Source: a virus
DNA length: 25,474 nt
Virus record (IMG/VR): IMGVR_UViG_3300022602_000384
Span: 1 to 25,474 of that record
Strand: one strand, 5' to 3'
This document shows positions 3,240 to 20,634 of the stretch, piece after piece. The first letter of the stretch is position 1; every line of letters starts with the position of its first letter. The notes under the pieces were generated by a model. It saw only the letters and a program-made list of their open reading frames with translations. It did not search any database and had not been told where the DNA came from. Made by a program: the position numbers and the translations under genes.

Positions 3240-5023
<1,784 letters not shown>

Positions 5024-16089: not shown

Positions 16090-16125
16090 AGCCCGTCCTA
16101 CCGTTAACTCGGTGGGGCGGGCTTT
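16090..16125 (+). terminator. Strong intrinsic terminator after the lysis cassette
   Basis: AGCCCGTCCTACCG (16090-16103) pairs along 14 positions (three G-T pairs) with CGGTGGGGCGGGCT (16110-16123), followed by a T-rich run. The six-base loop TTAACT contains, on the other strand, the TAA stop of the convergent HNH gene. Confidence 0.88.
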
Positions 16126-16463
16126 TCTTTATTGTTCCAGTCCTTATAAATTGCTGTCTTTAGCCTATGGCAATTGGCACAAAGTGTCATCAGATTAGTT
16201 AGATCATTGTTCTTATTGTTGCCATCTATATGATCCACATCCAATTGTGAAGGATGTGTTGGCACAAAGCCGCAATGCTCGCACTTGTCTTTTTTAAACT
16301 TCTTCCAAGGCGTTTTGTACTTCTTATAATTTTTCATACATCGAAACGATTGACTGCCATCGGCAAGGTTTATGACCTTGACGGGTGTAGTTCCGCATTC
16401 GCTACACAGCCCTGTACGGGCCGTCGGGTCAACACCTGATAGACGATGTACCCATTGCGCCAT
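16104..16463 (-). CDS. HNH endonuclease, minus strand
   Basis: This 119-residue protein has zinc-type Cys pairs at C20/C23 and C61/C64 and a classic HNH core: LDVDHIDGNNKNNDLTN with H78, then CANCH at 95-99. Phage HNH proteins of this type are homing endonucleases or packaging nucleases. This one is the only minus-strand gene between the lysis and replication modules, which favours a mobile homing gene. Its stop codon sits in the loop of the lysis terminator, so insertion was very tight. The ATG at 16463 lies six bases after a -10-like TAGAAT, with no Shine-Dalgarno, so a leaderless mRNA is likely. Confidence 0.85.
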   Translation of the reverse strand: MAQWVHRLSGVDPTARTGLCSECGTTPVKVINLADGSQSFRCMKNYKKYKTPWKKFKKDKCEHCGFVPTHPSQLDVDHIDGNNKNNDLTNLMTLCANCHRLKTAIYKDWNNKEKPAPPS

Positions 16464-16672: not shown

Positions 16673-16891
16673 ATGAAAGAAACAAAGATTAATCACAGAT
16701 CGTTTAGTTCATTTACCTCATGGCTACGTTGCGGCAAAGCATGGCAACTGGAACGTGGCTTGCAAGCACCATCAGACCCAGCATGGTGGTTTGTCGGTGG
16801 TTCTGCGTTTCACGCAGCAGCAGAGAAGTTTCTGCTCAATGAATTTGCTAAGACAAATAGCCCAGTAAAAGATACGGAGATACCTTTCTGA
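16673..16891 (+). CDS. Cas4/RecB-like exonuclease, N-terminal half (split gene)
   Basis: These 72 residues match the start of phage PD-(D/E)XK exonucleases: FSSFTSWLRCGKAWQLERGL, then VGGSAFHAAAE. C20 corresponds to the first iron-sulphur cluster Cys of Cas4/AddB-type enzymes, and G43...H47...E51 is nuclease motif I. The frame then stops at TGA 16891 after a short linker. The rest of the enzyme (motifs II-III and the other three Cys) is encoded at 17415, after three small genes. The two parts together (290 residues) have the normal size of the family. They could assemble into one nuclease, or this half could be a decayed remnant; the clean boundary at a linker favours assembly. Confidence 0.75.
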   Translation: MKETKINHRSFSSFTSWLRCGKAWQLERGLQAPSDPAWWFVGGSAFHAAAEKFLLNEFAKTNSPVKDTEIPF

Positions 16892-16892
16892 A

Positions 16893-17108
16893 ATGAGTAA
16901 AGAAATTGCAGACCTTAGAGCAACACCAGGAGCAGAAGCCGACTACCGTTCACTCGGTCCAATCCGTATCTGTCCATGTGACAGCGACTTATGGAACGTC
17001 AAGTGCAAGTTTGACGATGACGGCGAGTTGGGTATTTACTTCCTCGACATGCGTTGTGCGTCATGTGACTCGCTTGCAGTTGCGCCAATGCCAGGATGGA
17101 AGCAATAA
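16893..17108 (+). CDS. Small zinc-ribbon-like protein inside the split exonuclease
   Basis: This 71-residue protein starts one base after the previous stop. It has a CPC motif near residue 28, a Cys about ten residues later (VKCKF) and CASC near residue 55, so four or five Cys could hold a metal in a ribbon fold. Strands GELGIYFLDMRC surround the second pair. Nothing similar to a nuclease motif is present. It is coupled to the next gene by TAATG. Function unknown. Confidence 0.6.
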   Translation: MSKEIADLRATPGAEADYRSLGPIRICPCDSDLWNVKCKFDDDGELGIYFLDMRCASCDSLAVAPMPGWKQ

Positions 17109-17227
17109 TGTACGAGCGTTTTCTGCTTTGGATTAACAACTGGTCATCTGAAAGACTCAATGACCTTTACGATTGGGACAGCGATTGCTGGCATAACGAC
17201 AATACAACATGTGAGGATTGTGAATAA
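17108..17227 (+). CDS. 39-residue Trp/Asp-rich small protein
   Basis: The ATG overlaps the previous TAA and the stop overlaps the next ATG (TAATG on both sides), which argues strongly that it is translated. The product starts MYERFLLWINNW, is rich in Asp and Trp, and ends with C-W-H----TCEDCE, so a Cys/His metal site is possible. Strongly acidic overall. No family recognised. Confidence 0.55.
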   Translation: MYERFLLWINNWSSERLNDLYDWDSDCWHNDNTTCEDCE

Positions 17228-17415
17228 TGGGAAAGAAACGCGCTGCATTGGTTACCAAGGCTGCCTTTGAGCAGGCTTTTGTTGAGGCAGAAGTGCTTAT
17301 GCGTAAGGCTCTATCTGATCTAATTCAGAAAGAGATTAACGCTGAGACTAATCCTGCTACAATTGTAGGTCTGAAGAAGGCCCAAGCCGTTGTATTCGGA
17401 CAGGAAATTCAATAA
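17227..17415 (+). CDS. Small helical protein between exonuclease halves
   Basis: This 62-residue protein starts MGKKRAALVTKAAFEQ and is almost wholly helical (EAEVLMRKALSDLIQKEINAE), ending GLKKAQAVVFGQEIQ. It is coupled on both sides by TAATG. No Cys, no membrane segment. It could be a small nucleic-acid or exonuclease partner protein, but only position suggests that. Confidence 0.6.
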   Translation: MGKKRAALVTKAAFEQAFVEAEVLMRKALSDLIQKEINAETNPATIVGLKKAQAVVFGQEIQ

Positions 17416-18071
17416 TGTGGGATGACATTTGGCGCGAAGCCTTCAACAACCAAGTTGCTGAGGTTGAGAAGAAGTCTGGCACAAACCCACAGGAGTGGCG
17501 TAAAGGTGGCATGGCTACCAAAGCCAATCCAGATAAAGAAAACGGCGTATGGTGGGACGAGAACGGCAAGAAGATGTTCTTCGACTTTATCAACGTCTGG
17601 CAAGAAAGCCACTTTGAGATTTGGCAAACGCCACAGGGTATACCTGGCATTGAAATTGAATTTAATAACAACTTCGGTGAAGTGCCTATCAAAGCCTTTG
17701 CTGATCTAATTGCAGTTACCCCAGCGGGTGAACTTGCAGTTGTTGACTTTAAGACAGGTAAGGCTACGCCAGATAGTTCTATGCAATTGGGCTTGTATGC
17801 CTCATGCATGGAGATGACCTTTGGCATCCGACCTACAGTTGGTTACTACTATTCAGCCCGCAAAGGTTACTTTGACAAGGTAACTGGGTTGGATCGTTGG
17901 ACCATCCCACTCTTTACTGAGATGTTTGCTCAGTTTGAGCGTGGCTTGCAGGCAGAAATATTCTTGCCAAACATCGGCATGTCGTGTAGCACATGCGGAG
18001 TAAAAGATTATTGTTACGTCGTTGGCGGACAATTAGCACAGATTTACGACCCACTAGCAGAAATAAACTAA
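17415..18071 (+). CDS. Cas4/RecB-like exonuclease, C-terminal catalytic half (split gene)
   Basis: This 218-residue protein begins MWDDIWREAFNNQVAE, the helix that follows motif I in full-length relatives. The active site is visible: D97 in PIKAFADLIAV, D111-F-K113 in VVDFKTGK and Q124 in MQLGLYAS. Three Cys near the end (C191, C194, C200 in CSTCGVKDYC) are the remaining ligands of a 4Fe-4S cluster whose first Cys lies in the separate 72-residue protein at 16673. The family resects DNA 5' ends or makes single strands for recombination with an annealing or RecA-like protein. Lacking motif-I His, this half alone should be inactive or altered. Coupled to the gene before by TAATG. Confidence 0.85.
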   Translation: MWDDIWREAFNNQVAEVEKKSGTNPQEWRKGGMATKANPDKENGVWWDENGKKMFFDFINVWQESHFEIWQTPQGIPGIEIEFNNNFGEVPIKAFADLIAVTPAGELAVVDFKTGKATPDSSMQLGLYASCMEMTFGIRPTVGYYYSARKGYFDKVTGLDRWTIPLFTEMFAQFERGLQAEIFLPNIGMSCSTCGVKDYCYVVGGQLAQIYDPLAEIN

Positions 18072-19436: not shown

Positions 19437-19789
19437 GTACCTATGGCAAGCGCAAAGGTTCAGCCTTTGAGACTGGCATACTGAAGTTTCTTCGCTCCAG
19501 AGGGTTGCTAGCAGAGCGGTTACGCCTTGCTGGGAAGGATGATGAAGGGGATATAGTCTGTATGGTTGCGGGACAGCCATACGTCTTTGAACTGAAAGCA
19601 ACTGTCAAGATGGACCTACCGCAGTTTTGGCGTGAGGCTACCCTTGAGGCAGCCAATTACGCCAAGGCTCGTGGGTTAGAAGCCACACCACCTGCCTATG
19701 TGATAGTTAAGCGTCGCATGGGTAGCATGGAGAATGCCTGGGTTATTCAAGATCTAGACCAATGGATCAAGGTAACCAGTGGAGAGTAA
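19433..19789 (+). CDS. Holliday junction resolvase, PD-(D/E)XK fold
   Basis: This 118-residue protein has the Hjc-like set: KRKGSAFETGILKFL with E13, then DDEGDIVCM with D40, then FELKATVK with E53 and K55. These make the metal site that cuts four-way DNA junctions during recombination or resolves branched DNA before packaging. Length matches the compact archaeal/phage resolvases. It is coupled to the gene before by ATGA and overlaps the primase zinc gene by 11 bases, in a replication operon, which supports the assignment. Confidence 0.83.
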   Translation: MSTYGKRKGSAFETGILKFLRSRGLLAERLRLAGKDDEGDIVCMVAGQPYVFELKATVKMDLPQFWREATLEAANYAKARGLEATPPAYVIVKRRMGSMENAWVIQDLDQWIKVTSGE

Positions 19790-20150
19790 GCCTGATCTAG
19801 CCACTGTGCTAGAACATTACGGGGTGCGGATCCTCAACCGTCATGGCTGGATACCTTGCAAATGCATTATGCACGATGATTCACATGCCAGCGCAGCCTA
19901 TAACCTAGACTCGCAAGGCTACAACTGTTTAGTTTGCCAAATCCTCGGTGATGTCTACGATGTAGTAGCGCACATGGAAAACTTAAAGGAGTTTAGAGAT
20001 GTTAAGCGCAGAGCAGAAGAACTTGCTCACGGAAGCAGCAGAGCGTTATTCACGCAATCTCACACCACAGGCAGCGTCTTACCTCGCAGGGCGGGGAATA
20101 ACAAAGGAAGTGGCGGAACGGTTCCTTCTTGGAAGCGTAGTCGAGCCTAG
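19779..20150 (+). CDS. DNA primase, CHC2 zinc-binding half (split primase)
   Basis: Starts at GTG 19779, inside the end of the resolvase gene. The 123 residues carry the primase zinc motif: C29-I-M-H32 in CKCIMHDDSHASAAY, then C50-x2-C53 in YNCLVC, followed by helix GDVYDVVAHMENLKEF. The frame makes sense to about residue 85 (FRDVKRRAEELAHG). The last 40 residues (ending PSWKRSRA) look like out-of-frame translation, because the TOPRIM half begins at 19999 in the +1 frame. The zinc domain recognises template DNA and needs the TOPRIM domain to make primers, so both halves should work together. Confidence 0.78.
   Translation: MESKPDLATVLEHYGVRILNRHGWIPCKCIMHDDSHASAAYNLDSQGYNCLVCQILGDVYDVVAHMENLKEFRDVKRRAEELAHGSSRALFTQSHTTGSVLPRRAGNNKGSGGTVPSWKRSRA
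19985..19991 (+). promoter_or_regulatory. Internal Shine-Dalgarno site for the TOPRIM half
   Basis: AAAGGAG lies seven bases before the ATG at 19999 and inside the zinc-half gene. This near-perfect site supports independent initiation of the TOPRIM protein rather than a frameshift. A TAA in the same frame at 19984-19986 prevents a longer upstream start. Confidence 0.65.
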
Positions 20151-20634
20151 TGCTGGCCATGAGCATTCCACAGGAAGGCTATCCATCCCGTACCAGACGC
20201 CTACAGGCGTCGTGGGAATGAAGTTTAGGACTATAGATGGCGGCACGCCGAAGTACCTTTATCCCACTGGCCAAAAAGTGGGGCTATTTAACGTTATTGA
20301 TCTTCACAAGTACTCTGACTCGATTGCCATTTGCGAAGGTGAAATTGATACGATTGTACTTTCGGGCGTCGTCGGGATACCAGCGGTTGGTGTTGCGGGA
20401 GTATCACAATGGAAACCCTGGTTTCCAAAGTTATTCGAAGGTTACAAGAATATTTACATATTCGCAGATAATGATGTCAAAGAAGACGGGCGCAATCCTG
20501 GTCAAGAACTTGCCAAGAGGATCAAAGAAGATCTAGATAAGGCAACTGTCATGCAATTGCCAGACAATGAAGACGTCAATGATGTACTATTAGCCTATGG
20601 TTCTTCGTGGTTTACGGACAGGTTGGCAGCGTAA
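19999..20634 (+). CDS. DNA primase, TOPRIM catalytic half (split primase)
   Basis: This 211-residue protein begins with helices typical of the linker (RYSRNLTPQAASYLAGRGITKE), then a TGVVGMKFRTIDG strand. The TOPRIM domain follows: E113-G-E115 in ICEGEIDTIVLSG and D157-N-D159 in IFADNDVKEDG, the acidic residues that hold metal and polymerise the primer. It ends with LPDNEDVNDVLLAYGS, as in T7 gp4-type primases. It overlaps the zinc half by 152 bases in another frame and has its own Shine-Dalgarno. Normally both domains are one chain, so this is a split primase. It is followed by a small zinc gene that overlaps it by 38 bases. Confidence 0.85.
   Translation: MLSAEQKNLLTEAAERYSRNLTPQAASYLAGRGITKEVAERFLLGSVVEPSAGHEHSTGRLSIPYQTPTGVVGMKFRTIDGGTPKYLYPTGQKVGLFNVIDLHKYSDSIAICEGEIDTIVLSGVVGIPAVGVAGVSQWKPWFPKLFEGYKNIYIFADNDVKEDGRNPGQELAKRIKEDLDKATVMQLPDNEDVNDVLLAYGSSWFTDRLAA

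Follow-up and report, generated by a model that had tools for sequence, protein, structure and literature searches.

A Cas4-like phage exonuclease encoded as two separate genes in three phage lineages

How is a phage nuclease made when the residues of its active site and of its predicted iron-sulphur (Fe-S) cluster are encoded by two genes rather than one? The question is raised by a locus in a 25,474-nucleotide stretch of viral DNA (IMG/VR record IMGVR_UViG_3300022602_000384, positions 1 to 25,474; hereafter the window), where the initial annotation had described a Cas4/RecB-like exonuclease split into two genes with three small genes between them. We assessed this locus by profile searches, structural modelling and comparison with several hundred related loci.

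Two half-genes and the division of their motifs

The open reading frames and their family profile matches confirmed an exonuclease in two parts, an N-half of 72 residues and a C-half of 218 residues. Motif I and the first cysteine had been placed in the shorter protein and the D, D-x-K, Q and last three cysteines in the longer one; Cys20, Gly43-x3-His47 and Glu51 were found in the former and Asp97, Asp111-x-Lys113, Gln124 and Cys191/194/200 in the latter. The features are as follows, with conservation given for split pairs and fused proteins.

16673..16891, plus strand: exonuclease N-half, 72 aa, first gene of the run; phrog_1870 columns 14-72 (E = 2.9e-8) and phrog_69 (E = 6.8e-12)
16730..16732, plus strand: Cys20 codon of the N-half, predicted first Fe-S ligand; invariant in 169/169 split, 149/149 fused
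16799..16813, plus strand: motif I of the N-half, G43xxxH47, with the predicted metal-site histidine; GxxxH in 169/169 split, 149/149 fused
17415..18071, plus strand: exonuclease C-half, 218 aa, predicted PD-(D/E)XK core and three Fe-S cysteines; PF12705 (E = 2.5e-10), phrog_1870 columns 78-293 (E = 2.8e-38) and a confident model core
17703..17705, plus strand: Asp97 of the C-half, motif II; invariant in 169/169 split, 149/149 fused
17745..17753, plus strand: Asp111-x-Lys113 of the C-half, motif III; invariant
17784..17798, plus strand: Gln124-x3-Tyr128 of the C-half, QhxxY motif; invariant
17985..18014, plus strand: Cys191-x2-Cys194-x5-Cys200 of the C-half, predicted C-terminal Fe-S ligands; 169/169 split, 148/149 fused, with one gap

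The Pfam PDDEXK_1 profile (PF12705) matches both halves, although the N-half match (E = 0.0019) lies under the curated cut-off. The two matches to the 313-column exonuclease family PHROG 1870 are complementary and do not overlap, so that no essential part is lost and none is doubled. All family motifs, I (GxxxH), II (D), III ((D/E)xK) and QhxxY, are kept but distributed over two chains, and the residues and spacing of the four conserved cysteines of the family (one plus CxxCx5C) appear to be matched by the split pair. The cut-offs of the CRISPR Cas4 equivalog TIGR00372 (22.5 bits versus 65) and of Pfam Cas_Cas4 (16.7 versus 22.7) were not reached, and no CRISPR genes were present in the region read around the split nuclease. 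A role in defence was considered and rejected, as PADLOC returned only weak Cas4 and nuclease matches.

The closest known counterparts are the actinophage Cas4-family exonucleases (phrog_1870/pfam12705), such as gp48 of Rhodococcus phage RER2, gp82 of Mycobacterium phage Astro and gp36 of Propionibacterium phage QueenBey, which share the motifs, the fold and the operon position upstream of a DnaB-like helicase. These are encoded by one fused gene, whereas the phage of the window has two genes, with up to several genes between the halves in such split loci. The Cas4 proteins SSO0001 and Pcal_0546 and the iron-staple nucleases AddB/AdnA likewise possess one N-terminal and three C-terminal cysteines, the His, Asp, (D/E)xK and Q residues and the same fold, but in a single chain. 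Cys32, His62, Asp99, Glu113 and Cys188/191/197 of SSO0001 correspond to Cys20, His47, Asp97, Asp111 and Cys191/194/200 of the window, and in both proteins motifs II and III lie 14 residues apart and the cysteine spacing is identical (PMC4176176).

A fused homologue of 285 residues (L390) was modelled at a pLDDT of 92.9, and its best PDB matches are the Cas4-family ACE1, AdnAB, Dna2, EXO5, MGME1 and SSO0001. The break had been assigned to a linker; in this model it falls in a loop, between the motif-I helix (42-59) and a helix starting at 70, and the linker there varies in length and sequence among fused proteins, in support of that assignment. The C-half of the window also matches Cas4-family structures when modelled alone; confidence is high in its core (97-98) but falls to about 49-66 in the last third, where the Fe-S cysteines lie. 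The low confidence at these cysteines, in what is a comparison between two different proteins, is no more than suggestive.

Distribution, junction genes and constraint

Scans of IMG/VR with several C-half queries and one N-half query yielded several hundred loci, which were classed by similarity and profile search. Both domains were present in 326 unique loci, of which 175 are split and 151 fused, and the two states were never mixed within a cluster. The sole exception, L394, belongs to a fused lineage, is set apart from its fused sibling L399 by an indel of a single base, and was put aside. Among the split loci, 169 have full-length domains, and these fall into three groups. Clade A, the clade of the window (75 unique loci), has gaps of mostly 365-750 bases between the halves. 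In clade B, the Planktophila-phage clade of ct2KA10 (63 loci), to which the isolated phages E7 and F5 belong, nearly all halves overlap by 8-35 bases in a constant relative frame, with L151 and L157 as exceptions that carry one extra gene between the halves. In clade D (31 loci) the relative frame differs from that of clade B; a 4-base overlap occurs in 20 of the 31, and a few have one small gene at the junction. The split locus thus stands as annotated, but it is not a peculiarity of one phage, since it occurs in three lineages and does not require inserted genes.

Every related locus of the three lineages with enough flanking DNA has the same break, which excludes chance and assembly error. 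The junction was also read in the isolated phage F5 (OX376641, LanE43-AprF5), where it is split as in the window; in phage E7 (OX376640) a C-half match alone was seen. Phages E7 (39.1 kb) and F5 (38.9 kb) were isolated on 'Ca. Planktophila' LanE-43 (PMC10202952). An assembly or frameshift error was accordingly ruled out, the break being common to all relatives and to an isolated phage. A C-half lies downstream of 78 of the 80 N-halves, and for the other two the contig stops after a further 251 and 596 bases; neither half was found alone. Fused single genes occur in cultured Mycobacterium, Rhodococcus, Gordonia and Cutibacterium phages and in environmental clades such as the L390/L408 group. 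Actinobacterial hosts are indicated by the presence of WhiB in 8 of 10 long relatives; a scan of genome contigs with a clade B C-half revealed no relative as a host or prophage copy.

In the window, the gap of 523 bases (16892-17414) contains three genes:

16893..17108, plus strand: g1, 71 aa, zinc-ribbon-like CxC...CxxC with the four cysteines seen in the alignment; in 74/75 window-clade loci, median dN/dS 0.157
17108..17227, plus strand: g2, 39 aa, accessory; in 10/75 window-clade loci, TAATG overlap with g1
17227..17415, plus strand: g3, 62 aa; in 75/75 window-clade loci, median dN/dS 0.101

The tight coupling noted by the annotation was verified: g1 starts a single base after the N-half stop, and the g1/g2, g2/g3 and g3/C-half junctions are TAATG overlaps, which makes translational coupling likely. 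The best start of g2 is the one at 17108, although a longer frame opens at 17096. The order N-g1-g3-C is kept in all window-clade loci that have g1 and g3. These two are conserved families of small proteins, found in the window clade almost always inside the split nuclease; neither has a match in cultured phages. No gap gene matches a Pfam or PHROGs family at a meaningful score, and no homing endonuclease was found among them in these databases. An intron in the gap was considered and rejected, as no Rfam family matches in the window and the gap genes are under selection. The intervening genes are optional for the split state, and since most loci of clades B and D are split with an empty junction, the gap genes look like a consequence of the split and not its cause.

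Cys20, Gly43, Asp97, Asp111, Lys113, Gln124, Tyr128 and the three C-terminal cysteines are invariant across the split pairs, all of which retain GxxxH, and the fused proteins (149 rows) keep the same residues except for one row gapped over the C-terminal cysteines. Median dN/dS values in the split clades were 0.07-0.12 for the N-half (0.10 in the window clade) and 0.08-0.10 for the C-half, similar to those of the fused freshwater clade (0.09 and 0.12 for the corresponding parts). Purifying selection on the two halves is strong in each of the three split clades, and neither half is decaying. The division of active-site and Fe-S ligand residues between two chains, as originally described, is supported alike by comparison with fused proteins, by the invariant motifs, by this selection and by the fused-homologue model. 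The data establish the bipartition of the gene, its conservation, the invariance of the motifs, the selection and the gene order.

Trees of 61 and 50 representatives clustered the split and fused states strongly but left the backbone unresolved, and 2-3 state changes were needed (bootstrap range 1-3). Forcing all split loci together cost 1.9 log units and was not rejected (AU p = 0.43). Given these two results, a single origin was not retained as a settled matter; the trees are compatible with one split followed by re-fusion or with as many as three separate breaks in the same linker.

A proposed two-subunit nuclease

We consider it very likely, from sequence conservation and the models, that two genes, kept permanently apart, together encode one phage exonuclease, and that their products form a heterodimer in which both chains contribute to the active site. 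The working enzyme would probably consist of two proteins, both produced by coupled translation of one run of early genes. The N-half would provide the motif-I histidine along with the Fe-S ligand Cys20, and the remaining three cysteine ligands would come from the C-half together with the PD-(D/E)XK core. The iron 'staple' built by four cysteines in Cas4 and AddB lies within one chain (PMC3466216; PMC4176176); here the cluster would bridge two chains, with one and three ligands. The break is located in the loop that joins the motif-I helix to the following one; this loop varies in length and may tolerate a chain end. After the split, the junction would have become an ordinary gene boundary, at which small genes gathered in the window clade and occasionally elsewhere. 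The split locus is located just upstream of a gp49-like gene and the DnaB-like helicase, the position of the exonuclease locus in Rhodococcus and mycobacterial phages, suggesting a role in phage replication or recombination.

Physical assembly, cluster formation and nuclease activity are what we infer for the pair. A related fold, DUF3799, binds zinc and not an Fe-S cluster (PMC3466216), which counts against the Fe-S reading. Moreover, the Cas4 proteins Pcal_0546 and SSO1391 were still active as nucleases after Cys-to-Ala mutation (PMC4176176), so the cluster may be dispensable.

The main alternative, that the C-half is a whole functional nuclease and the N-half has another job or is a slowly lost relic, appears improbable. 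It would account for the match of the isolated C-half to Cas4-family structures and for its retention of motifs II, III and QhxxY, on whose residues Pcal_0546 and SSO1391 depend critically (PMC4176176). However, the N-half keeps Cys20 and GxxxH at every split locus, is under the same constraint as the C-half and always accompanies it. Production of a single chain after all, by RNA splicing or by ribosomal frameshifting or hopping, or a break due to sequencing error, is highly improbable: the constant frame of the clade B overlaps would permit frameshifting there and the fused relative L394 does have a one-base indel, but most window-clade gaps hold selected genes in varying number, clade D uses another relative frame, the clade B overlaps vary in length, no intron family matches the window and all relatives share the break.

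The proposed two-subunit nuclease can be compared with phage genes in pieces, such as the split NrdA of Aeh1, the split gp43 of Aeromonas phages and the T4 topoisomerase (PMC2988022), and with the split DNA polymerase of MEP401-like phages (PMC10580990), which are also enzyme genes broken into separate coding regions. In those systems the parts must reassemble, sometimes with a gene between them (PMC2988022; PMC10580990). The present locus agrees with them in having one coding region in relatives and two here, both under selection. It differs in that a small nuclease is broken inside its set of active-site and Fe-S motifs, in that no homing endonuclease is found in the gap, and in that three lineages are split, often with directly overlapping halves.

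The phage Cas4-like exonuclease family, including a large mycobacteriophage clade, is already known (PMC5704561), as are split phage enzymes (PMC2988022; PMC10580990). We found no report of a split Cas4-like phage exonuclease in the open-access literature, though it may have been described elsewhere; neither the paper on Cas4 phylogenomics (PMC5704561) nor the one on E7 and F5 (PMC10202952) uses the word 'split'. What appears to be new is a small nuclease split through its active-site and Fe-S motif set and kept so across three lineages. If the metal site and the Fe-S cluster are indeed shared, this natural split Cas4-like nuclease would offer a direct route to the purpose of the 'iron staple', because here two proteins would depend on the cluster to stay together. 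The locus also shows that in common freshwater phages the gene of a replication-region enzyme has been split for a long time; fused, directly overlapping and gene-interrupted states can all be compared, one cultured phage included. Annotation rules that expect one gene miss such enzymes, as the sub-threshold Pfam match of the N-half illustrates.

The Pro-Phe tail and neighbouring genes

The split makes possible a free C-terminus on the N-half, which in the window carries a tail resembling the tip of single-stranded DNA-binding protein (SSB):

16871..16888, plus strand: N-half C-terminal tail DTEIPF, SSB-tip-like; 58/75 unique window-clade loci end in Pro-Phe, encoded with different Pro codons

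Examples such as DTEIPF, FADVPF, TVDIPF, TDKPPF and EEELPF follow a variable linker with acidic residues, their Pro codons vary synonymously, and the tail also occurs in two clade D loci (L385 and L391). By comparison, Pro-Phe ends were found in 3 of 769 ORFs of at least 80 aa in representative loci, a rough background from mechanically called ORFs. The tails match the SSB-tip pattern of acidic residues, a hydrophobic residue or Pro, and Pro-Phe at the extreme C-terminus, as in DDDIPF (PMC4137731). The SSB of M. tuberculosis ends in DDEPPF. In contrast to the SSB tip, the tail of the window is on a nuclease fragment and has fewer acidic residues. No PF00436 SSB match was obtained in ten long relatives.

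There is an even chance that the Pro-Phe is instead a structural anchor derived from the fused-enzyme linker and packing on the nuclease core. This is equally possible because at roughly this linker position the fused freshwater clade often has Phe, preceded by Pro in some members, and then Asp (DAPFDPTAVF, SPFDTTAVF). Furthermore, 17 of the 75 window-clade loci lack the tail and are still split. On the other hand, the tail is at the extreme C-terminus behind a linker of variable sequence and length, and the listed tails have an acidic residue at -4 or -5, as in the SSB tip. We therefore treat the SSB-tip-like tail as a lead and not a finding. Rather doubtful is the combined proposal that the Fe-S cluster is an inter-chain staple gating formation of the nuclease and that the window-clade tail mimics the SSB tip, docking the nuclease onto SSB-binding replication and repair proteins.

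Other genes of the window were noted in passing. A gene for an HNH endonuclease of 119 aa (16104-16463, minus strand) lies just upstream of the N-half, outside the gap; a free-standing HNH gene beside a broken gene is suggestive. The primase apparently also consists of two overlapping genes (19779-20150 and 19999-20634, plus strand), with a weak match to the dnaG zinc domain and a TOPRIM part matching dnaG at E = 1.8e-10, and ct2KA10 (L082) shows a similar pair of primase frames. The structural gene region encodes a collagen-like protein of 480 aa with Gly-x-x repeats (3581-5023, plus strand).
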